From positions 1-55,567 of the forward strand of contig NZ_NFIH01000016.1 of assembly GCF_002161675.1 (NCBI RefSeq): DNA of 55,567 nt. The letters run 5' to 3'. A model generated the notes under the pieces. The model did no database searches. It was not told the DNA's origin and saw nothing but the letters and a program-made list of their open reading frames with translations. Within the stretch, counting starts at the first letter, position 1. Every line of letters starts with the position of its first letter. Origin of the DNA: Pseudoflavonifractor sp. An44 (GTDB lineage Bacteria > Bacillota > Clostridia > Oscillospirales > Oscillospiraceae). Position numbers and translations under genes: made by a program. Positions 18,815 to 46,175 of this stretch are shown here, in pieces.

Positions 18815-19078
18815 TTGGGTTTTCCTCCTTAATAACATACGAAGTGATGATTGGTCGTCCCTTCGTACGGTGAAAAACTCCGTCCACGTTTCCGTGCGTA
18901 TCACTCTGGGACATGAATAAAACCGGCACAAAAGCTGGCCGGTTTCACCCATTTCCCGGCGATATACGCCGTGAACTGAGTCTCTCAGCCGCCCGATTCT
19001 CGGACATACTCCGCGGAAGTTACCTCGTTTTCACGAGCAATCTCCCGCATCATCGCATAGTGCACCCTTTGCAGGCGC
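18815..19078 (-). ncRNA. S10 operon leader with attenuator-like hairpin
   Basis: About 265 nt of transcript precede rpsJ. On the minus strand a stem AAACCGGC/GCCGGTTT with a 10-nt loop is followed by TTATT (18914-18945), resembling a terminator. A second stem TACGAAG/CTTCGTA lies just before the ribosome binding site. Leader control of S10 operons is known in other bacteria, but I cannot match this leader to a described family. Confidence 0.55.
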
Positions 19079-19113: not shown

Positions 19114-19577
19114 GGGAAAATTCAAGTTTTTTCGCTGCAAACTCCGCCAGTTCCCGGGGAAAACCAGGGGGTTTTTGTGTGCAATTTGACCTTTGCTTTT
19201 CCGGCCTCCAGGCCCTCAAAACGCCTCCGGCTCTTCGGACGTTTCCGCACCCCATGCGGCGCTGTGGTAGGGGCCGTGGCTTGCCCGGCCCGCTTTGCCG
19301 GGGGCCTGTTCTTCTCCCATGTCTCAGGCGCAAACCTGCGCCCCAACGGGGGACGCTCCGCCGGGAGCATTTCCGCCCCCCTGTGGCGCTGGGGTAGGGG
19401 CCGCGGCTTGCCCGGCCCGTGGCTACCCTGGTATTGCCCTGGAGGATTCGGGAGGGGCAAGCCCCTCCCCTACGCCCATCAACGCAAGAAATGCACCGAT
19501 GTTAGGGCTGCCTCAATTAAAATCCGTGCCGCCCAGCGGCACACCACAATTCTTCATTATTCATTCTTCACTATTCA
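19114..19577. repeat. Intergenic repeats between S10 operon and deaminase gene
   Basis: No gene is seen. A 26-nt direct repeat (GGTAGGGGCCG then GGCTTGCCCGGCCC) occurs at 19266-19291 and 19393-19418 with one mismatch. GGGGAGGGGCTT-type palindromes follow near 19450-19475. At 19515-19582 lies copy 1 of the dispersed GTGCCGC/GCGGCAC repeat described under findings. Confidence 0.6.
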
Positions 19578-37546: not shown

Positions 37547-38376
37547 GTTGCGCGCTTCCTTTCTGGTTCAGTGCTTGGGTAGAAAAACCCATTTTAACTT
37601 ATGTAGTATACCATACTCCCCCACGAGAAAAAAGAGGAAATTGAAATTTCAGTATGTTTTGGGCGTTGCCCCACCCAAAAGCCCCCTGACTGGGGCGTGT
37701 GGGTGGGCTTGTCCCTCTGTCTGAGGTGAGTTTAGACCCTGCCAGCCTGTTTTTCGCTCCGCTGGGGTTACTTTCTGATGGGCAGAAAGTAACCAAAGAC
37801 CCACCAAAGGGAGATCCCTTTGGAAACCCCATGTTTTTATGTTTTGTACCGGGTCGAGGCTCAAGTCGGCCCTGGGCCTGGTGGGGCTGGTTGGATGGCT
37901 GGGCATATCTCTGGGCAATTTCTGCTCCGCTGGCAGTTCCCGCTCCTTCCACCAGGGCCTCAGGTCTGGGGGAGCGGCCTCGCCCGGCCGCCGTCGGCCG
38001 GGGTGCGCCACAGGTAGGGCCGAAAACAAGAGAATGGCGCACCACCCCAGCAGCGACCAAAAAGAGAAGCGCTGCTTTCCCTCTTGGTATGGCAAACGCC
38101 CTTCGGCCCGGCCTGGGAAGCAACTCCTCACAGCCCAGAAAAGCGGGGTGGATTCCACAAGGAGGGGGAAGGCCCCTCCTTTGGCGATTCTTTGGTGGCT
38201 TTCTCATCGCTGAGAAAGCCACCCTGCGGAGCAAACCCCGGCTGGCAAGCCTGAAACAGGGGCGGTTCGACGGGTCTGCCTAGCGGCAGACAGCTCCCCC
38301 TGCACCGGGGGTGCTCTGCGCCTGGAGGTGCATCTAAATTCCCACCCCTTTATGCACCACTTTACTGTACAAAATT
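37547..38376. repeat. Mosaic repeat block between secA and symporter
   Basis: No real gene is seen in these 830 nt. Listed from the left: hairpin GGTTACTTTCTG/CAGAAAGTAACC (37766-37794), palindrome CCAAAGGG/CCCTTTGG (37804-37823), the 93-nt GGGCCGAA...TTCGGCCC unit (38017-38109), and an 81-nt unit (38143-38223) with two hairpins that recurs at 45974-46054. The secA promoter (-10 at 37605-37610, minus strand) is at its left edge. Confidence 0.75.
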
Positions 38377-38380
38377 CCCC

Positions 38381-38409
38381 TTGACACTGTCCGCATGTGG
38401 CGGTATAAT
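38381..38409 (+). promoter_or_regulatory. Promoter of the glycine riboswitch transcript
   Basis: -35 TTGACA, 17 nt, -10 TATAAT: a perfect sigma-A consensus. Confidence 0.9.
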
Positions 38410-38439
38410 GTCCATCACAACAAAACAAAAGCAGACGAA

Positions 38440-38614
38440 GCGTGCAGGAAAAGGCCAGGGTCGGCCTACCGAAGGAGTGACACTCTCAGGTTCCCCGGGA
38501 CACGGGGTGAGGACTGTACGTGGATGTAACTCTGGAGAAGCTCAGCAATGAGTGCCGAAGGTGCAACGTGGGGACCGCTGGTTCCCGCCAATCTCTCAGG
38601 CAAAAGGACAGAGG
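38440..38614 (+). ncRNA. Tandem glycine riboswitch
   Basis: Two glycine aptamers stand in series. The first has CCGAAGGAG and CTCTCAGG...GGACTG. The second has GTGCCGAAGGTGCAA and the signature ATCTCTCAGGCAAAAGGACA. The two are joined by a short linker, and a terminator lies downstream at 38678-38718. Glycine riboswitches normally permit expression when glycine is abundant. The downstream gene is a Na+/alanine-glycine symporter, which fits. Confidence 0.9.
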
Positions 38615-38677
38615 AAATCATACGCCGACGCACCCGCTCCCCCGTTGGGGAGTCGGTGCCAGCACCGTCATTTCCTC

Positions 38678-38718
38678 AGGTTGCGGAGTATTCCATCCGC
38701 AACCTGTTTTTGTTTTGT
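38678..38718 (+). terminator. Riboswitch-controlled terminator
   Basis: A 10-bp stem AGGTTGCGGA/TCCGCAACCT is followed by GTTTTTGTTTTG. This is the expression platform of the glycine riboswitch. Confidence 0.88.
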
Positions 38719-38746
38719 CAAAAACAGCTCGAGGAGAGGATTCAAC

Positions 38747-40156
38747 ATGGTTCAGCAATTGGAAGCCGCACTTTTACCCGTGGTCAACGCCTTAAATGAC
38801 TACCTATCCAGCTACATTCTGGTGTTTCTGCTCATTGGCGTTGGCCTGTTCTACTCCATCCGCACCCGGTTTGTGCAGGTGCGCTGCTTTGGCGAGGGCA
38901 TGAAAAAGGTCTTTGGCAACCTGTCCCTGCGGGGCGGGGCCCAGGCCCAGGGCATGAGCTCCTTCCAGGCCCTGGCCACCGCCATCGCCGCCCAGGTGGG
39001 CACCGGCAACATCGTGGGCGCCTCCGGCGCCATCCTCACCGGCGGCCCCGGGGCCATCTTCTGGATGTGGATCATCGCCTTCTTCGGCATGGCCACCATT
39101 TACGCCGAGGCCACCCTGGCCATCCACACCCGGGTCATTGACCAGGACGGCCACATCCACGGCGGCCCGGTGTACTACATCACCACCGCCTTCCGGGGCG
39201 CCTTCGGCAAGTTTCTGGCCGGGTTCTTCGCCGTGGCCATCATCCTGGCCCTGGGCTTTATGGGCTGCATGGTCCAGTCCAACTCCATCGGCTCCACCTT
39301 CCAGACCGCCTTTGGCGTGCCCTCCTGGGTGATGGGCGTGGTGCTGGTGGTCATCTGCGCCTTCATCTTCCTGGGCGGCGTGCAGCGTCTGGCCGCCGTC
39401 ACCGAGAAGCTGGTGCCCATCATGGCCGCCATCTTCCTGCTGGGCGCTGTGGCGGTGCTGGTGGCCCGCATCGCCTACCTGCCCGAGACCTTCGCCATGA
39501 TCTTCCGCTACGCCTTCCAGCCCCAGGCTATCATCGGCGGCGGCTTTGGCTACGCCATCAAAACCGCCGTCAGCCAGGGCGCCAAGCGTGGCCTGTTCTC
39601 CAATGAGGCGGGCATGGGCTCCACCCCCCACGCCCACGCCCAGGCCAACGTGAAAGACCCCCATGAGCAGGGCGTGGTGGCCATGGTGGGCGTGTTTATC
39701 GACACCTTCGTGGTGCTCACCCTCAACGCCCTGGTGGTCATCTCCACCCTGTACACCTCCGACGGCCCCCTGGCCGGCGGCTATGTGGGGGACGTCACCG
39801 CCACCCTCAACAGCGCCAACCTGGCCCAGACCGCCTTCGGCACCGTGTTCGGCGCCCACTTCGGGGCCATCTTCGTGGCCATCTGCCTGTTCTTCTTCGC
39901 CTTCTCCACCGTGCTGGGCTGGAACCTGTTCGGCAAGATCAACGTGATGTACCTCTTCGGCAAAAAGGCCGCCCCCGTCTACGGGGTGCTGGCCCTGGTG
40001 TTCATCTTCCTGGGCACCACCATGTCCAACGACCTGGTTTGGGGCCTCACCGACCTGTTCAACAACCTCATGGTCATCCCCAACGCCATCGCCCTGTTTG
40101 CCCTGTCCTCCATCGTGGTGGGCATCGCCAAACGCCGGGGAAACGCCCTGAAATAA
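38747..40156 (+). CDS. Sodium:alanine/glycine symporter family protein
   Basis: This is a 469-residue membrane transporter of the AGCS (AlsT) family with about ten to eleven hydrophobic segments. Family marks are GNIVGASGAILTGGPGAIFW (with the GTGN just before) and SNEAGMGSTPHAHAQA. It imports alanine or glycine with sodium. The upstream glycine riboswitch points to glycine. The ATG at 38747 has GGAGAGGA upstream. A longer reading would run into the riboswitch and is wrong. Confidence 0.93.
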   Translation: MVQQLEAALLPVVNALNDYLSSYILVFLLIGVGLFYSIRTRFVQVRCFGEGMKKVFGNLSLRGGAQAQGMSSFQALATAIAAQVGTGNIVGASGAILTGGPGAIFWMWIIAFFGMATIYAEATLAIHTRVIDQDGHIHGGPVYYITTAFRGAFGKFLAGFFAVAIILALGFMGCMVQSNSIGSTFQTAFGVPSWVMGVVLVVICAFIFLGGVQRLAAVTEKLVPIMAAIFLLGAVAVLVARIAYLPETFAMIFRYAFQPQAIIGGGFGYAIKTAVSQGAKRGLFSNEAGMGSTPHAHAQANVKDPHEQGVVAMVGVFIDTFVVLTLNALVVISTLYTSDGPLAGGYVGDVTATLNSANLAQTAFGTVFGAHFGAIFVAICLFFFAFSTVLGWNLFGKINVMYLFGKKAAPVYGVLALVFIFLGTTMSNDLVWGLTDLFNNLMVIPNAIALFALSSIVVGIAKRRGNALK

Positions 40157-40229
40157 TGGGAATTTCCCTATAGTTTCTCTGTCCCCCCTCCACTCCCCCG
40201 GGCAGGTTTGCCAAAAATCTTCGGATTGG

Positions 40230-40258
40230 TTGACAATTCTGCCCGGGGGAGATATAAT
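40230..40258 (+). promoter_or_regulatory. Promoter of the lysine transport operon
   Basis: -35 TTGACA, 17 nt, -10 TATAAT: a perfect consensus, just upstream of the lysine riboswitch. Confidence 0.9.
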
Positions 40259-40276
40259 ACCGCCAAAATGAACCAC

Positions 40277-40437
40277 TGATAGAGGCGCGGTGCCAATGGG
40301 TGCCCCACATGAGCCTGGAAGGGCGTGGGGTGCGAGGTGTCACCGCCGAAGGGCAAAGGGGCTTCCACCCGCTTTGTGCCTGGGTCGTCGGGAAATACCC
40401 GGCGGACTGTCACACCCCCTGGTGTGAAGCGCTATCA
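40277..40437 (+). ncRNA. Lysine riboswitch (L box)
   Basis: The element starts TGATAGAGGCGCGGTGCC and closes with GAAGCGCTATCA, pairing as P1. Inside are the L-box marks GCCGAAGGGCAAAGGGG, CTGGGTCGTCGGG and GGACTGTCACACC. A terminator follows at 40483-40518. Lysine riboswitches turn expression off when lysine is high, so the downstream transporter should be a lysine importer. Confidence 0.9.
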
Positions 40438-40482
40438 TGGCAAGCCAAAAGTTCCCGTCCCTCTCGTGGGCGGGGGTTTGTT

Positions 40483-40518
40483 GACCATGATCGCATCACG
40501 CGGTTCATGGTCTTTTTG
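40483..40518 (+). terminator. Lysine riboswitch terminator
   Basis: Stem GACCATGA/TCATGGTC with a 14-nt loop is followed by TTTTTGTTT. It is the expression platform. Confidence 0.83.
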
Positions 40519-40551
40519 TTTATTCGAAAAAAGAAGGAGAGAGGAACCCCC

Positions 40552-42372
40552 ATGAAACAGAAACTCTTTGCCCTGCTCCTGGCGGTGGCGCTGGTGCTGT
40601 CCCTGGCGGCCTGTACCGCCAGCCCTTCGGACTCCGGCTCCAACACCTCTGCCAGCCAGGCACCGGCCGCGGACGTCCCCGACGTCCCCGACTTCACCGA
40701 CGTGGACACCTCCACCATCCCCGGATTGGAGGACGGCGTGCTCACCGTGGGTATGGAGTGCGCCTACGCCCCCTACAACTGGATGCAGATGGACGACTCC
40801 AACGGAGCCGTGCCCATCTCCAACGTGTCCGGGTCCTACGCCAACGGCTATGACGTGATGATCGCCAAGCGCATCTGTGAGGCCTACGGCTGGGAGCTGG
40901 AAGTGGTGTCCAGCTCCTGGGACTCCCTGACCCCCGCCGTCCAGGCGGGCACCATGGACGCCAACATCGCCGGCCAGTCCATGACCGCCGACCGGATGAA
41001 GGAAGTGGACATGGCTGGCCCCTACTACTACGCCACCATCGTGTGCCTGACCTCCAAGGACAGCCCCTACGCCTCCGCCACCTCCATTGCCGACCTGGCC
41101 GGGGGCATCTGCACCGCCCAGTCCGGCACCATCTGGTATGACTCCTGTCTGCCCCAGATTCCCGACGCCAACATCCTGTCCCCCGCCGACAACGCCCCTG
41201 CCATGATTATGCAGCTGCAAACCGGCATGGCCGACTTCATCTGCACCGACATGCCCACCGCCAAGGGCGCCGCCGCCAAGGACGACAACCTGGTGGTGCT
41301 GGACTTCTCCGGCACCGACGGGGACTTCCAGTTTGAGACCGAGGCTGAGCGGGCGGAGAACGTGAACATCGGCATTTCCGTGAAGAAGGGCAACACCCAG
41401 CTCAAGGACGCCATGGACGCCGTGCTCTCCCAGCTCACAGCGGAGGACTTTGACGCCATCATGGACCAGGCCATCGCTGCCCAGCCCGCCACCGACGACA
41501 CCGACGCCAACCTCTTTGTCAAGCTGGGCCACGACATGGCCCAGCTGTGGAGTGAGTACCACACCGGCTACCTCAAGGGCATCTTGAACACCCTAGTGCT
41601 GGCCGTGGCCGCCACCGTCATTGGCTGTATCATCGGCCTGGTGTGCGGCATTCTGAACACCATCCCCTACGCCAAGCAGGACCCCCTGCCCAAGCGGGTC
41701 ATCCTGAAGGTGATTCGGGCCCTGGTGCGCATCTATGTGGAGGTATTCCGCGGTACTCCCATGGTGCTGCAAGCGGTGTTTATCTACTATGGCCTGCCCT
41801 ACTTCACCAATGGCTCGGTGGCCTTCCGGGGCTCCTCCGGCATCTGGCTGGCCTCCATCATCGTGGTGTCCATCAACACCGGCGCCTACATGGCCGAGTC
41901 GGTGCGTGGCGGTATCATCTCCATTGACCCCGGTCAGACTGAGGGCGCCCGGGCCATCGGCATGAACCACTTCCAGACCATGACCTCGGTGATTCTGCCC
42001 CAGGCCATCCGCAACATCATCCCCCAGATCGGCAACAACTTCATCATCAACATCAAGGATACGTCCGTGATGTTCATCATCAGCTTCACCGAGTTCTTCG
42101 CCTTCCACCGCTACATCGTGGGCGTGAACAACATGTACTTCCCCTCCGCCGCCATCGAGATGATCGGCTACCTGACCATGACCCTCATTGCCTCCGCCCT
42201 GCTGCGCCTCATTGAGAAGCGCATGGACGGCTCGGACAACTACGAGCTGGTGCAGGTGGATGCCCTGACCATGGCCGCCGGGACCTACAGCCACCCCAAC
42301 CGGGGCACGCCCTTTGACGAGCACAGCAAGGAACAGCGGGACCGCAACGGCAGCACGAGAGGAGAGCGGTAA
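40552..42372 (+). CDS. Amino-acid ABC transporter, fused binding protein and permease (lysine)
   Basis: The 606-residue product joins two functions. A lipoprotein signal ([21 protein letters not shown]) leads into a periplasmic-type binding domain (to about residue 315), with [20 protein letters not shown] and [21 protein letters not shown] membrane permease domain of the His/Glu/Gln type follows, with [17 protein letters not shown] and the EAA-like [21 protein letters not shown]. Lysine specificity is inferred from the riboswitch. It is followed by its ATPase 1 nt later. Confidence 0.92.
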
Positions 42373-42373
42373 T

Positions 42374-43114
42374 ATGAGCGACGCCATTTTACAAGTCAAG
42401 CACCTGTCCAAGTCCTTTGGCAGCCACCAGGTGCTGAAAGATATCGACTTCACCGTCCGGCCCGGAGACGTGACCTCCATCATCGGCGCCTCCGGCTCGG
42501 GCAAGTCCACCCTGCTGCGGTGCATCAACCTCCTGGAGACCCCCTCCGCCGGAGACATCCTCTTCCACGGGGAGAACATCACCGCCCGGGGCTTTAACCC
42601 CTGCCGCTACCGCTCCCAGGTGGGCATGGTGTTCCAGTCCTTCAACCTGTTCAACAACATGACCGTGCTGGAAAACTGCATGGTGGGCCAGGTGAAGGTG
42701 CTGAAAAAGTCCAAGGCCGAGGCCAAGGAAAACGCCATGAAGTACTTAGAGCAGGTGGGCATGGCCCCCTACATCAACGCCCGCCCCCGGCAGATCTCCG
42801 GCGGCCAGCGCCAGCGGGTGGCCATCGCCCGGGCCCTGGCCATGGAGCCGGAGGTGCTGCTCTTCGACGAGCCCACCTCCGCCCTGGACCCGGAGATGGT
42901 GGGCGAGGTGCTCTCCGTCATGCGGGACCTGGCCTCCCAGGGCATGACCATGCTGGTGGTGACCCACGAGATGGCCTTCGCCCGGGACGTGTCCAACCAC
43001 GTGGTGTTCATGGCCGATGGAGTCATCTGCGAGCAGGGCGACCCCAAGGACGTGTTCACCAACCCCAAGCAGACCCGGACCCGGGAGTTTTTGTCCCGTT
43101 TTATGGGAGAATGA
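42374..43114 (+). CDS. Amino-acid ABC transporter ATP-binding protein
   Basis: This is a 246-residue ATPase of the polar amino-acid uptake type (GlnQ/ArtM-like). Walker A is GASGSGKST, the signature is [15 protein letters not shown], Walker B is [12 protein letters not shown] and the H-loop is VVTHEM. The start ATG has GAGAGCGG upstream and almost touches the permease stop. Together they form a complete importer under the lysine riboswitch. Confidence 0.95.
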
Positions 43115-43115
43115 G

Positions 43116-43166
43116 AAACCCGCCCCGGCAGAGTGCAAACGTTGTACTCCGCCGGGGCGGGTTTTA
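43116..43166 (+). terminator. Terminator of the lysine transport operon
   Basis: Stem AAACCCGCCCCGGC/GCCGGGGCGGGTTT ends in TTTTAA. It abuts repeat copy 3. Confidence 0.88.
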
Positions 43167-43230
43167 ATGAATAATGAAAAATGAATAGTGAATAAGTATG
43201 GTGTGCCCCACAGTGGCACGAATTTTAATT
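43165..43230 (-). repeat. Dispersed CGTGCC repeat, copy 3 (inverted)
   Basis: Read on the minus strand it matches copies 1 and 2: AATTAAAATTCGTGCC, a short hairpin GTGCC/GGCAC, ACACC, then an A/T-rich tail of TTCACTATTC words. It sits right at the terminator of the lysine operon. Confidence 0.72.
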
Positions 43231-43259
43231 TGAGGTGGAGACTTGAGGGCAGTTTCCCC

Positions 43260-43288
43260 TTGCCAACTTGGCCGCGATTTAGTACAAT
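43260..43288 (+). promoter_or_regulatory. Promoter of the YheO-type regulator
   Basis: -35 TTGCCA, 17 nt, -10 TACAAT. Confidence 0.75.
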
Positions 43289-43324
43289 AAAGGTTGACAG
43301 TTTGTAAAGAAGGAGGGCTTCCAT

Positions 43325-43963
43325 ATGACGAGAGATGAAGCCTTTGAATTTTTAGACCGCACCGCCCGGGGCATTGCCGAGATGTTCGGCTCCTCCTGTG
43401 AGACGCTGGTGCACGACATGGGAGTCCCCTCCCATCCCATTTTGTCCATCTATAACGGCCATGTCTCCGGCCGAGAGGTGGGCTCCACCATGGATATCCT
43501 GGGCATCGGCCTGGAGCTGGATGCCGACTCCTCGGTGACGGATTTTGTCAACCTGGCCGCCACCACCCCCGACGGACGCCAGACCAAATCCTCCACCTTC
43601 CACATGATCGGCGAGGACTACAACCTGGCCCTGGGCATCAACTTCGACTACACCTCTCTGGTGTTTGCCAACCGCATTCTGGTGGACCTGATGAGCGCCA
43701 GCTCGGACTTGCAGTCCGCCCTGTGGCAGGAGGGGGACTCCAAGCAGCTGGCCGACCTCTTCGAGCGGTGCCTGGCCGCCCTGGGCAAGCCGGTGGACGC
43801 TCTGAATAAGAAGGACCGCCTGCGCATGATTGCCATGCTGGAGCAGAAAAACGCCTTCTCCTTCCGCAAATCCGTGCCCTATGTGGCCAAGCACCTGGGG
43901 GTGTCCCGGTACACGGTGTACAAGTACCTGGGCGAGCTGGCCGAGCACAGCGAGGAGGAATAA
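43325..43963 (+). CDS. YheO-family PAS/HTH transcriptional regulator
   Basis: This is a 212-residue protein with an N-terminal YheO-type PAS-like domain (CETLVHDMGVPSHPILSIYNGHVSGREVG) and a C-terminal helix-turn-helix (SVPYVAKHLGVSRYTVYKYLGEL). A relative in Pseudomonas, DauR, represses D-arginine catabolism genes. The ligand here is unknown. The M20 dipeptidase gene follows 87 nt later and has its own promoter, so it is a possible target. AGGAGG precedes the ATG. Confidence 0.87.
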   Translation: MTRDEAFEFLDRTARGIAEMFGSSCETLVHDMGVPSHPILSIYNGHVSGREVGSTMDILGIGLELDADSSVTDFVNLAATTPDGRQTKSSTFHMIGEDYNLALGINFDYTSLVFANRILVDLMSASSDLQSALWQEGDSKQLADLFERCLAALGKPVDALNKKDRLRMIAMLEQKNAFSFRKSVPYVAKHLGVSRYTVYKYLGELAEHSEEE

Positions 43964-43978
43964 TCCCCCTTTCTTCCC

Positions 43979-44007
43979 TTGTTTTTTCCGCCTCGGTGGA
44001 CTACAAT
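43979..44007 (+). promoter_or_regulatory. Promoter of the dipeptidase gene
   Basis: -35 TTGTTT, 17 nt, -10 TACAAT. The -35 is weak, so activation or readthrough may matter. Confidence 0.55.
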
Positions 44008-44050
44008 GTGGAATAGTTATACATTCGTTTACATAAGGAGATCATACATC

Positions 44051-45454
44051 ATGTATCGTGAACAGTTAGAAGCTTATTTTCAGGACAAGCAGGACATGCT
44101 GGTGGACGCCGTGTGCCGCCTGGTGTCCATTGACAGCGTGGAGGGCGAGCCCGCGCCCGGCGCTCCCTTCGGCCCCGGCCCCGCCGCCGCGCTGGAAGAG
44201 GGCCTGAAGCTGGCCCAGGAGTGGGGCCTCATCACCCAAAACCACGAGGGCTACGTGGGCACCGCCGACCTGTGCGACAAGGAAGACGCCCTGCACATTC
44301 TGGGCCATCTGGACGTGGTGGCCCCCGGCGAGGGCTGGACCGTCACCCAGCCCTATCAGCCCAAGGTGGTAGATGGCCTCATCTATGGCCGTGGCACCGA
44401 CGACGACAAGGGCCCTGTGGTGGCCTCCCTGCTGGCCATGAAGGCGGTGAAGGACCTGGGTGTGCCCCTGAAGTCCAACTGCCGCCTCATCATGGGCACC
44501 AACGAGGAGAGCGGCTCCGGGGACATCGCCTGGTACTTTGCCCGCCACCCCTTCGCCCCCGCCACCTTCTCCCCTGACTCCGGCTACCCCGTCATCAACA
44601 CCGAGAAGGGCGGCTTAAAGCCCACCTTCTCCCGCTCCTGGCCCGTCCAGGAGGCTCTGCCCCGGGTGAAGTGGCTCCACGGCGGCTTCCGCATCAACGT
44701 GCTCCCCGGCGACGCTGAGGCAGCGGTGGAGGGGCTCACCCTCCACGACGTGCACCCCTTCGCCCGGGACATCACCGCCCGCACCGGCATCACCTTCACC
44801 TGCACCAGCCAGGACGGCTGCACCGTCATCCACGCCAAAGGCGAGGGCAGCCACGCCGCCTGGCCTGAGGGGGGCAACAACGCCGTCACCGGCCTCATCG
44901 CCCTGCTGTGCGCCCTGCCTCTGGCCGAGGGTCCCTGCAAGGAGGCCCTGAACCAGCTCAACACCCTGCTTCCCCACGGGGACTACCACGGGCGGGCCCT
45001 GGGCATCGCCCAGTCCGAGCCCATCGCCGGGGATTTGACCGTGGCTTTCACCCTGCTGGAGGTCACCGAGACCGGACTCACCGGCCGCTTTGACTCCCGG
45101 GTGCCCCTGTGCGCCACCAAGGAAAACTGTGAGGACGTGGCCCGGGCCGCTTTTGAAACGAGTGGCTTCACCTTTGAAGGTGAGCAGGAGGAGGCCCACC
45201 ACACCCCCGCCGACTCCCCCTTCGTGCAGACGCTGCTGAAGCGGTACGAGGAGTACACTGGACAAAAGGGCGAGTGCCTGTCCACCGGCGGCGGCACCTA
45301 CGTCCACGAGATTCCCGGCGGCGTGGCCTTCGGCTGCACCATGCCCGGGTTTGACACCCACCTCCACGGGGCGGACGAGCGGGTGAAGATCGCCGACCTG
45401 ATGCTGTCGGCCAAGCTCTTTGCCCACATTATCCTTGATATGTGCGCTGAATAA
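44051..45454 (+). CDS. M20 family dipeptidase (Sapep/PepV-like)
   Basis: This is a cytoplasmic metallo-dipeptidase of 467 residues. Active-site motifs run HILGHLDVVAPGEGW (metal His and Asp), YGRGTDDDKGP and the catalytic GTNEESGSGD. A lid domain follows, and the last metal histidine is in the C-terminal part (FDTHLHGADER). The Sapep group uses manganese in other Firmicutes. It probably supplies amino acids from dipeptides. AAGGAG precedes the ATG. Confidence 0.92.
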   Translation: MYREQLEAYFQDKQDMLVDAVCRLVSIDSVEGEPAPGAPFGPGPAAALEEGLKLAQEWGLITQNHEGYVGTADLCDKEDALHILGHLDVVAPGEGWTVTQPYQPKVVDGLIYGRGTDDDKGPVVASLLAMKAVKDLGVPLKSNCRLIMGTNEESGSGDIAWYFARHPFAPATFSPDSGYPVINTEKGGLKPTFSRSWPVQEALPRVKWLHGGFRINVLPGDAEAAVEGLTLHDVHPFARDITARTGITFTCTSQDGCTVIHAKGEGSHAAWPEGGNNAVTGLIALLCALPLAEGPCKEALNQLNTLLPHGDYHGRALGIAQSEPIAGDLTVAFTLLEVTETGLTGRFDSRVPLCATKENCEDVARAAFETSGFTFEGEQEEAHHTPADSPFVQTLLKRYEEYTGQKGECLSTGGGTYVHEIPGGVAFGCTMPGFDTHLHGADERVKIADLMLSAKLFAHIILDMCAE

Positions 45455-45460
45455 TCTTCT

Positions 45461-45498
45461 GGGGCCGCTGCACCATGCAGCGGCCCCTTTGGTTTTTC
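45461..45498 (+). terminator. Dipeptidase gene terminator
   Basis: A perfect 12-bp stem GGGGCCGCTGCA/TGCAGCGGCCCC is followed by TTTGGTTTTTC. Confidence 0.88.
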
Positions 45499-46175
45499 GG
45501 CACACTGGGGAAAAAGTTTCCCCTTCTCTTATTTCTTTGTTCCAGCCCTCCGGCCTGGTGGGGACGCTCCCCGCTGGGGGTTTCTTTTGAGCGGGCAAAA
45601 GAAACCAAAACCCGCTTAGGGCGTTCCCCCCTAAGTACCCCCCTGGGGTACGAGGCTGACGTGCGTCAAGTCTATGGTCGTCCCGTCACCCTTGCTGTGG
45701 CTCCTGTCGCTGCCACCACACCAGGCAACCTTGGGCAGCTGGCCCTATAGCCAGGCAATTTCCACGTCCGGGCCTATCCTGGCCAAGCGGCGTTCCCGCC
45801 GCCGGGAGCCTAGCTTCCGGTCGCTGGGAACAGCGGCTCACCAGGGTAAGGCCCTGGGGACAGAAGCATTGTCTGCCAGAGAAGTAGGTACTTTCTGTAG
45901 AATTTCCACGCCATCCATGTGACCCCACCAGGCCAAGGGCCGAAACAAGGAGAACGCAGGGGCATCCAGTACCGCGGGGTGGATTCCACAAGGCGGGGGA
46001 AGGCCCCGCCTTTGGCGATTCTTTCCCCAATTTCTCATCGCGGAGAAATTGGGGAAAGCGGAGCGTCCCTGCCAGGGGCGCTGGTTTCCGCCTGAGAAAT
46101 CGGAGGAGAGCAAGCCCCTCAGGTCAGAGACAAAGAATTGCACCATTCTTCCCTGGCCCTTGTCAGGTGGATGTG
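45499..46175. repeat. Mosaic repeat block before the HdeD-like gene
   Basis: No real gene is seen. Positions 45554-45658 repeat 123-227 in inverted orientation (101 of 105 identical). The left arm GGGCCGAAA recurs near 45945. Positions 45974-46054 repeat 38143-38223: the first 51 nt differ at only two sites, which form a base pair, and the following hairpin keeps its loop but has different, still fully paired, outer stem bases. A TGG-TACAAT extended -10 near 46175-46183 probably drives the next gene. Confidence 0.78.

Follow-up and report, generated by a model that had tools for sequence, protein, structure and literature searches.

A 55,567-nucleotide stretch of DNA from Pseudoflavonifractor sp. 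An44 (contig NZ_NFIH01000016.1; hereafter 'the window') carries two copies of a dispersed intergenic repeat of ~560 base pairs (bp). This repeat is probably a non-autonomous mobile element resembling miniature inverted-repeat transposable elements (MITEs), with ends that would be recognised as folded single strands. The copies form a family with defined ends, each end is built from a module of recurrent geometry whose parts covary, modules of this kind occur in several phyla, and individual sites are found empty or re-occupied in other species. From these comparisons we infer the formation of the fold, its use as a recognition signal, the existence of a mobiliser and the function of the element, and the data point to what may be an undescribed kind of small mobile element. 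An earlier reading of the window from its letters alone (the sequence-only reading) had overlooked the most telling feature, which is that the loop of the terminal hairpin is complementary to the upstream flank and that the linker between them mirrors the stem.

The element and its end module

The sequence-only reading had described two 81-nucleotide copies of a hairpin unit, and both are present, at positions 38143-38223 and 45974-46054. As it had noted, their first 51 nucleotides differ at columns 21 and 35 alone, which pair with each other (A38163-T38177 versus C45994-G46008), and further differences lie in the outer six pairs and the loop of the second stem. RNA folding of the two copies yields -45.7 and -43.9 kcal/mol (z-scores of -5.10 and -4.25), and for neither copy did any of 200 shuffles fold as well. 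In a set of 31 distinct 3' arms that have a conserved lead-in and come from this genome or its relatives, the first stem carries A-T at this pair in 5 arms and C-G in 26, and no arm is half-changed. The compensatory differences had been offered as strong evidence for a selected fold. On their own, two copies offer weak evidence, since a small set of recurring hairpin types accounts for the difference in the outer stem, but the selected fold itself is supported by covariation in further copies. Most stem changes in these copies are compensated, where unpaired changes had been named as evidence to the contrary. The 81-nucleotide unit is likewise real but incomplete, in that it constitutes the 3' arm of a non-coding element of ~560 nucleotides.

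A search of the 2.75-Mb An44 genome (G000; other genomes carry other G numbers, and loci carry L numbers) with copy 1 recovered at least 40 places, including both window copies, plus two hairpin self-matches; this is a lower bound, as 40 of 93 candidates were scored. Alignment of 40 extended copies, two of them clipped at contig ends, reveals ~560-580 conserved columns with background-level similarity on either side. A one-strand hidden Markov model (HMM) identified 57 near-full-length copies in G000 and its relatives, and replaced a two-strand iterated model that had become symmetrised because the element is nearly palindromic. Contigs L014, L078 and L079 end in or near an element copy, and copy numbers in draft genomes are therefore probably too low.

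With up to 10 candidates scored per genome, matches were found in 9 of 36 other genomes of the same genus, so that the absence from relatives that would have spoken against the sequence-only reading did not occur. Five of these genomes have full-length copies, three have short weak pieces, and G001 shares mainly the element ends, which surround a different interior. At the G001 loci L083 and L084 the arms are as in the window element and the interior is unlike it, and four G001 copies look alike by eye. No match was found among the up to 10 candidates scored in each of 23 genomes from other genera of the order, and the window element has no match among 50,697 phage records at an E-value of 0.01.

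In the window, copy 1 of the element spans 37736-38262 on the plus strand (HMM positions 5-559, 232 bits), has a divergent interior and is located between divergently oriented genes. Copy 2, at 45543-46115 on the plus strand, is typical (positions 4-577 of the 577-position model, 592 bits). A partial element representing a 5' arm lies near the window edge at 94-240 on the minus strand (118 bits).

The 5' end of the element is a reversed copy of the 3'-end module. Read along the pyrimidine strand, a module consists of a flank, a U/C-rich linker, an outer stem of six positions, an inner U/C stem, a loop and a purine return, and this layout, as deduced from sequence, corresponds to an H-type pseudoknot that contains a major-groove triple helix. 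Several hairpin types coexist within a single genome. The loop is complementary to the flank in most of them (GCGAT/ATCGC, TGGG/CCCA, AGCGGG/CCCGCT and AGTGGC/GCCACT), and the linker is a mirror of the inner stem (TCTTT by TTTCT, TTTT by CTTTTG, and TTTTT by ATTTTTG). The outer stem has six positions in the types laid out by hand, with varying letters and, in some types, one position unpaired. Hairpins were obtained from 112 of 114 genus arms, and a loop-flank match of at least 4 nucleotides occurs in 44 of the 52 distinct arms, compared with a mean of 20 and a maximum of 31 in 2000 permutations of the flanks. Where neighbouring modules lie less than 3 kb apart, 58 of 67 pairs face each other, and 37 of these 58 are separated by gaps of 388-397 nucleotides.

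The modules of both window copies can be laid out in this manner. The 3' arm module of copy 1 (38184-38223, plus strand), supported by the sequence, a geometry detector and the loop-flank test, comprises the flank GCGAT at 38184-38188, the linker TCTTT at 38189-38193 and a stem at 38194-38205/38212-38223 that encloses the loop ATCGCT at 38206-38211. The 5' arm module (37766-37805, minus strand) was found by the geometry detector and is also matched by the covariance model R1 described below (37760-37808, minus strand). Its stem is at 37766-37777/37783-37794, its loop at 37778-37782 and its linker at 37795-37799 (AAAGA), with the loop-complementary flank beginning at 37800 (CCCA) and the minus strand being the pyrimidine strand. 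For copy 2, the sequence, the hairpin-type reading and the geometry detector place the 5' arm module at 45579-45616 on the minus strand, where the stem 45579-45589/45596-45606 encloses the loop AGCGGG (45590-45595), and the linker AAAA (45607-45610) leads to the flank CCCGCT (45611-45616), a 6-nucleotide complement of the loop. The 3' arm module of copy 2 (46015-46054, plus strand; sequence and loop-flank test) has the flank GCGAT at 46015-46019, the linker TCTTT at 46020-46024, a stem at 46025-46036/46043-46054 and the loop ATCGCG at 46037-46042. Here CTTT of the linker could alternatively pair with AAAG after the stem, and the strict geometry detector missed this arm because of the longer stem that is possible. 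The second, G-rich hairpin occupies 38159-38181 in copy 1, where it holds the A-T pair whose counterpart in the other copy is C-G, and 45990-46012 in copy 2, both on the plus strand.

Covariation across phyla and the strand that would fold

Public genomes were searched with a pattern that fixed only part of the stem and the linker; columns fixed in this way carry no evidential value, and the unfixed parts were those tested. At least 118 stretches match, and those listed include Burkholderiales, Lysobacterales, Methylophilus, Pseudomonas, Selenomonadales, Oscillospiraceae, Mucilaginibacter, Segetibacter, Chitinophaga and Desulfuromonadales, among others. BLAST adds Pasteurella, Aeromonas, Variovorax and the fusobacterium Ilyobacter, as well as 15 plasmid records of Paraburkholderia/Caballeronia, seven of them with at least 37-40 arm matches. 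The motif is thus present in Pseudomonadota, Bacteroidota, Fusobacteriota and Bacillota. A Thiobacillus element gave no match in E. coli at an E-value of 0.01. At locus L167 (1400-3300), translation of reading frames that run over the modules yields peptides resembling one another (KKVTKE, KRKSPKKRR), so this repeat may underlie some of the proteins annotated as hypothetical.

Among distinct public-genome loops, some of them from Oscillospiraceae, 38 of 68 have a flank complement of at least 4 nucleotides (permuted mean 8, maximum 17, 2000 permutations), and mirror matches number 158 of 232 in the same scan (permuted mean 102, maximum 123). A detector requiring the full geometry found 191 modules in 1.31 Mb of loci, most of which had been chosen for carrying the motif. 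Of these modules, 153 include a 4-nucleotide loop complement. The same detector applied to a mononucleotide shuffle found 1 module.

Covariation was assessed in a set of 47 same-geometry modules of other bacteria, none of them titled Bacillota and one (L085) titled only 'bacterium'. The loop-flank helix (columns 7-10 with 35-38) is 89.9% paired and has double changes at all four pairs. Double-change cells over the whole structure number 97, where shuffles give 26 (0 of 500) and slid versions give 13-28; such cells count sequences rather than events and are inflated by kinship. Linker columns 12-14 switch jointly with stem columns 42-44 between U.A and C.G, and the four linker-stem columns tested hold 24 double-change cells versus 8 in shuffles (0 of 500), with a covariation of 0.324 versus at most 0.200 in slid versions. 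A covariance model (R1) was built from the 47 sequences without the pseudoknot. It matches all 18 candidates scored in G000 (18 of 1021), including the 5' arm of window copy 1, and finds at least 5 of 299 Bacillota genomes, G000 among them, with 18 candidates scored per genome, so that the true share may be higher. In genomes found with R1, the linker and stem have shifted jointly (L294, TTTCTTTTT by TTTTTCTTT; L298, TTTCTTTT by TTTTCTT), and the outer stems vary (GGGTAC, GATAC) with partners that match. Chance or artefact was rejected as an explanation by the shuffled foldings, the loop permutations, the detector shuffle and the covariation tests.

Long palindromes mutate through template switching. 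The repeats might be viewed as inert palindromic DNA that general recombination and replication slippage have dispersed and kept uniform, with the loop-flank and linker matches as by-products of template switching. A hairpin type with an inverted loop (6 copies) and a fused two-arm derivative in G024 (L079) resemble the outcome of such events, and exchange breakpoints are located at the base of the terminal hairpins (L035/L067). However, template switching leaves unexplained the constant six-position outer stem between the mirrored blocks, the same geometry recurs with different letters in several phyla, and double changes exceed those of all shuffles. We consider this explanation quite unlikely.

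Mismatches in the stems bear on which strand would fold. At the third outer pair, examined at 116 distinct sites where the search pattern limited one partner to A or C and left the other free, there are 61 non-Watson-Crick cells, of which 58 read C.A or A.C along the purine strand and thus G.U (G.T) along the pyrimidine strand. Among 54 distinct unrestricted stems of the genus, the five pyrimidine-strand mismatches are three wobbles, one G.A and one A.C. These counts suggest, weakly to moderately, that the fold that matters is that of the pyrimidine strand, as RNA or single-stranded DNA. A linker that crosses six base pairs without a spare nucleotide suits the deep groove of A-form helices, and this fit leans towards RNA. 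For the element as a whole, wobbles counted on a predicted consensus fold were uninformative, with an excess of G.U on both strands because fold prediction favours G.U.

The nearest precedent, and the only close one found in the literature searched, is the BoxC/PIT intrastrand triplex repeat, as far as it is described in the consulted parts of PMC4666352. Those parts state that purine-motif triplexes cannot form in RNA and that pyrimidine ones can. Like the present element, BoxC/PIT is intergenic, has many copies, consists of a hairpin plus a mirror third strand, sometimes occurs as reversed pairs and has no transposase seen next to it. It differs in being G/C-rich and in mirroring the whole stem after a 3-nucleotide spacer; the parts consulted mention no loop-flank helix, do not use the word pseudoknot, and do not describe BoxC/PIT as the ends of a ~500-nucleotide element. 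The BoxC/PIT rule, CCCTCNCCC N3-6 GGGNGAGGG N3 GGGNGAGGG, does not describe the arms examined, which are A/T-rich inside and have six mostly paired positions between the mirrored blocks.

The element could nonetheless be an A/T-rich relative of BoxC/PIT that acts as DNA, with the purine strand forming a class II triplex that destabilises the locus. The modules show the class II order of pyrimidine, purine and mirror purine on one strand, their mirror purine blocks and short spacer fit the class II definition in the consulted text of PMC4666352, paired reversed copies occur there too, and element loci do rearrange between species. Against this stand the outer six positions, which mostly form a paired stem rather than a loop, the loop-flank helix, which has no counterpart in BoxC as described, and the G.U cells, which indicate the pyrimidine strand. 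We regard this possibility as distinctly improbable. A/T-rich triplex motifs are counted in bulk in the portion of PMC4666352 consulted, and some modules may sit unrecognised in that database.

Genomic sites, turnover and candidate mechanisms

Based on crude gene calls, the 56 sites with a called gene on either side comprise 30 tandem, 16 convergent and 10 divergent arrangements. None of the 56 lies inside an open reading frame (ORF) longer than 1200 nucleotides, shorter frames over the element having been dropped beforehand as spurious. Divergent pairs are scarcer at element sites than in the remaining gaps between genes at these loci (10 of 56 versus 50 of 161, p 0.06). In other phyla, the contexts are 34 tandem, 25 convergent and 8 divergent, and 32 of 138 motifs lie inside greedy ORFs of at least 120 amino acids in genomes that are mostly GC-rich, and these frames are perhaps spurious.

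This placement bears on the possibility that the repeat is a functional RNA module, such that intergenic transcripts from both directions would have either a nuclease-resistant triplex pseudoknot at their end or the outer hairpin as their terminator. The module would then shield 3' ends or uncouple genes, and its spread would be secondary. The scarcity of divergent gene pairs, in the genus and in other phyla, is in keeping with such a role, as are the pyrimidine-type module at the 3' end of either strand and the confinement of G.U cells to one strand. Terminator-like sites are also enriched, with 8 versus 1.1 expected around copy 2 and 4 versus 1.3 around copy 1, and the outer hairpin followed by the T-rich arm accounts for three of these sites around copy 2 and one around copy 1. 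When tested as intrinsic terminators, the arm hairpin lacks a T tail, and the outer hairpin plus the T-rich arm stem is terminator-like at the 5' end of both copies. Nevertheless, copy 1 is flanked by divergent genes, an arrangement seen at 10 of the 56 sites, interiors vary between lineages while the ends are kept, and sites in sister species are empty or replaced. An RNA role at transcript ends is less likely because of the divergent-gene sites and because interiors are not common to lineages, and we judge it to be unlikely.

Comparison of individual sites between species reveals turnover. The site of copy 2 is empty in G001 and G010. A second site holds the element in G006 and G000, is empty in G001, carries a different insert in G018, and in G020, where it is also counted as empty of the element, contains another repeat. 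At a third site, the element is present in G006, G001 is empty, half-elements occur in G018 and G024, and G020 has a weaker match; G000 has no element beside the single flank that aligns. A solitary outer-end sequence without an element lies in the window at 19304-19372 (minus strand), and the matching place in G018 holds a full element (L069).

The sites at hand allowed 13 cross-species comparisons of shared sites, in which 7 pairs have the same orientation, 5 are reversed and 1 is unclear. Six of the 7 same-orientation pairs are mutual best matches, one of them by only 0.002. In contrast, among the 5 reversed pairs, 4 show no greater similarity than unrelated copies do, despite flanks of up to 96.7% identity, and these copies have therefore apparently been replaced. 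Simple in-place inversion was rejected as the general cause of reversed copies on the same grounds, replacement being the better fit; copy 1 and its counterpart in G018 are the one pair that resembles such an inversion. In L035/L067 the outer flank is kept, with the breakpoint of the exchange at the foot of the terminal hairpins. Sites are, by this evidence, re-occupied in either orientation.

Two further kinds of sequence were noted at these loci. A second palindromic intergenic repeat (GGCTCCCCTGTGTAAGGGGAGC followed by its reversed copy) occurs at L279 1210-1500, L071 5170-5340 and L073 3800-3990, and in several loci it flanks or encloses the element, as if the latter had inserted in the repeat centre. 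In G024, a short derivative at L079 11890-12145 consists of two terminal modules fused via one G-rich hairpin, and its site holds full elements in G000 (L012) and G010 (L082).

We favour the interpretation that the repeat is a mobile element with folded ends. The loop would pair with the flank to form an H-type pseudoknot, and the linker would lie in the major groove of the inner stem and make U.A-U and C+.G-C triples. The folded end, whether RNA or single-stranded DNA, would then be the signal by which separate machinery recognises the element and copies or exchanges it. With the module reversed at either end, each strand would end in the same fold, which would explain refilling in either orientation.

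A search for the mover was made with one transposase family, Y1_Tnp (PF01797). Besides two strong matches in G001, the genome with mainly element ends, and one 29-bit match containing a stop in G000, it has no match in G006, G018, G020, G024 and G010, all carriers of full elements. The RAYT/Y1 transposase was rejected as the mover because 5 of the 6 full-element carriers have no match. ORFs between two unusually wide module pairs, read by eye, include no transposase, and no transposase-bearing parent with shared ends was noticed in the loci examined.

Several observations weigh against mobility through folded ends. No transposase or autonomous copy was found in the loci examined, and five carriers of full elements have no Y1_Tnp match. 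There is no clear target-site duplication, and the flanks of occupied and empty sites have diverged too far for one to be called. One hairpin type (6 copies) has a flank identical rather than complementary to the loop, as if the loop had been inverted, 7 more distinct genus arms have a loop-flank match of only 3 nucleotides, the linker could join a longer stem in window copy 2 and at L077:4071, and the AT-rich copies of G206 have loops too small for a pseudoknot. In the 47-module set, the numbers of pairs with a double change and of pair types are weakly above those of shuffles (25 and 46 of 500), column 11 with 41, which is closest to the loop, is off the pattern at 12.8%, and linker-stem pairing is 70.7% versus 69.7 and 73.4 in slid versions, with pair types not above shuffles. 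Lastly, the outer hairpin and T-rich arm are terminator-like in the scan, which favours a transcript role. The terminator-like sites and the scoring of only part of the candidates in the Bacillota survey slightly weaken the mobile-element interpretation and slightly strengthen the functional RNA alternative.

A bolder extension, which we hold to be unlikely, is that these are widespread bacterial mobile elements that move via RNA, in the manner of short interspersed nuclear elements (SINEs), or via single-stranded DNA. Telomerase-like triplex pseudoknot ends would serve as the start or recognition signal on the copied strand, and elements would replace one another at fixed intergenic sites in either orientation.

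Known repeats and the place of this element

No named RNA family matches the repeat, as the sequence-only reading had stated. At gathering thresholds, Rfam models find nothing over either copy, and in the window they identify only the lysine riboswitch at 40272-40442, the glycine riboswitch at 38522-38621 and the S10-Clostridia leader at 18989-19061. A perfect consensus sigma-70 promoter (TTGACA, 17 nucleotides, TATAAT) at 38381-38409 lies between copy 1 and the glycine riboswitch, with copy 1 just upstream and the promoter left intact.

The openly readable literature that was searched contains no description of the element, and a prior description behind subscription is possible. Four words of 14-16 letters from the element core are not printed in the literature searched, and five words of 12-14 letters match only in 18 papers, whose titles are not on bacterial repeats. 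A stem-loop survey (PMC2267715) does not describe the element in the parts consulted. The R-family repeats of Pseudomonas fluorescens, compared by description only as given in part of PMC2718517, are similarly families of intergenic sequences in which reversed repeats enclose a variable core, but their reversed repeats are 11-43 bp long and their tabulated sizes are at most 352 bp. REP/BIME sequences with RAYT, according to the portion of PMC2817692 consulted, are extragenic palindromes in alternating orientation. The present element differs from these in having a pseudoknot layout rather than a plain hairpin, and in that 5 of 6 full-element genomes lack a Y1 match.

MITEs (ERIC, RUP, Correia and similar) are short, non-coding and dispersed, with reversed end repeats and no gene of their own. 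The element is likewise dispersed and non-coding with reversed terminal repeats, and shows insertion polymorphism between relatives. It is longer than the size of generally <200 bp given in the consulted text of PMC4666352. It also departs from MITEs in that the end module is common to phyla while interiors differ, and in that no parent transposon was found in the loci examined.

H-type pseudoknots of the telomerase and SAM-II types contain major-groove triples in which loop 1 matches stem 2 as U.A-U and C.G-C. The module has the corresponding order of flank, pyrimidine loop 1, stem 2, stem 1 return and stem 2 return. The covariation expected of such a fold is seen in the loop-flank helix and, for U.A-U/C.G-C, in three of four linker-stem columns. 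The module differs from those examples in belonging to a dispersed bacterial repeat in which it is reversed at both ends, and its fold is predicted.

Many bacterial genomes contain intergenic repeats that are dispersed and have no mover or role assigned to them. What sets this family apart is a signature common to phyla, consisting of the loop-flank helix, the mirrored linker and the six-position outer stem, which is precise and testable and predicts the folding strand. The signature also permits a hunt for protein or RNA machinery that co-occurs with it. Should the fold form, the ends of a mobile element would join telomerase and a few riboswitches, the main settings in which triple-helix pseudoknots are known.

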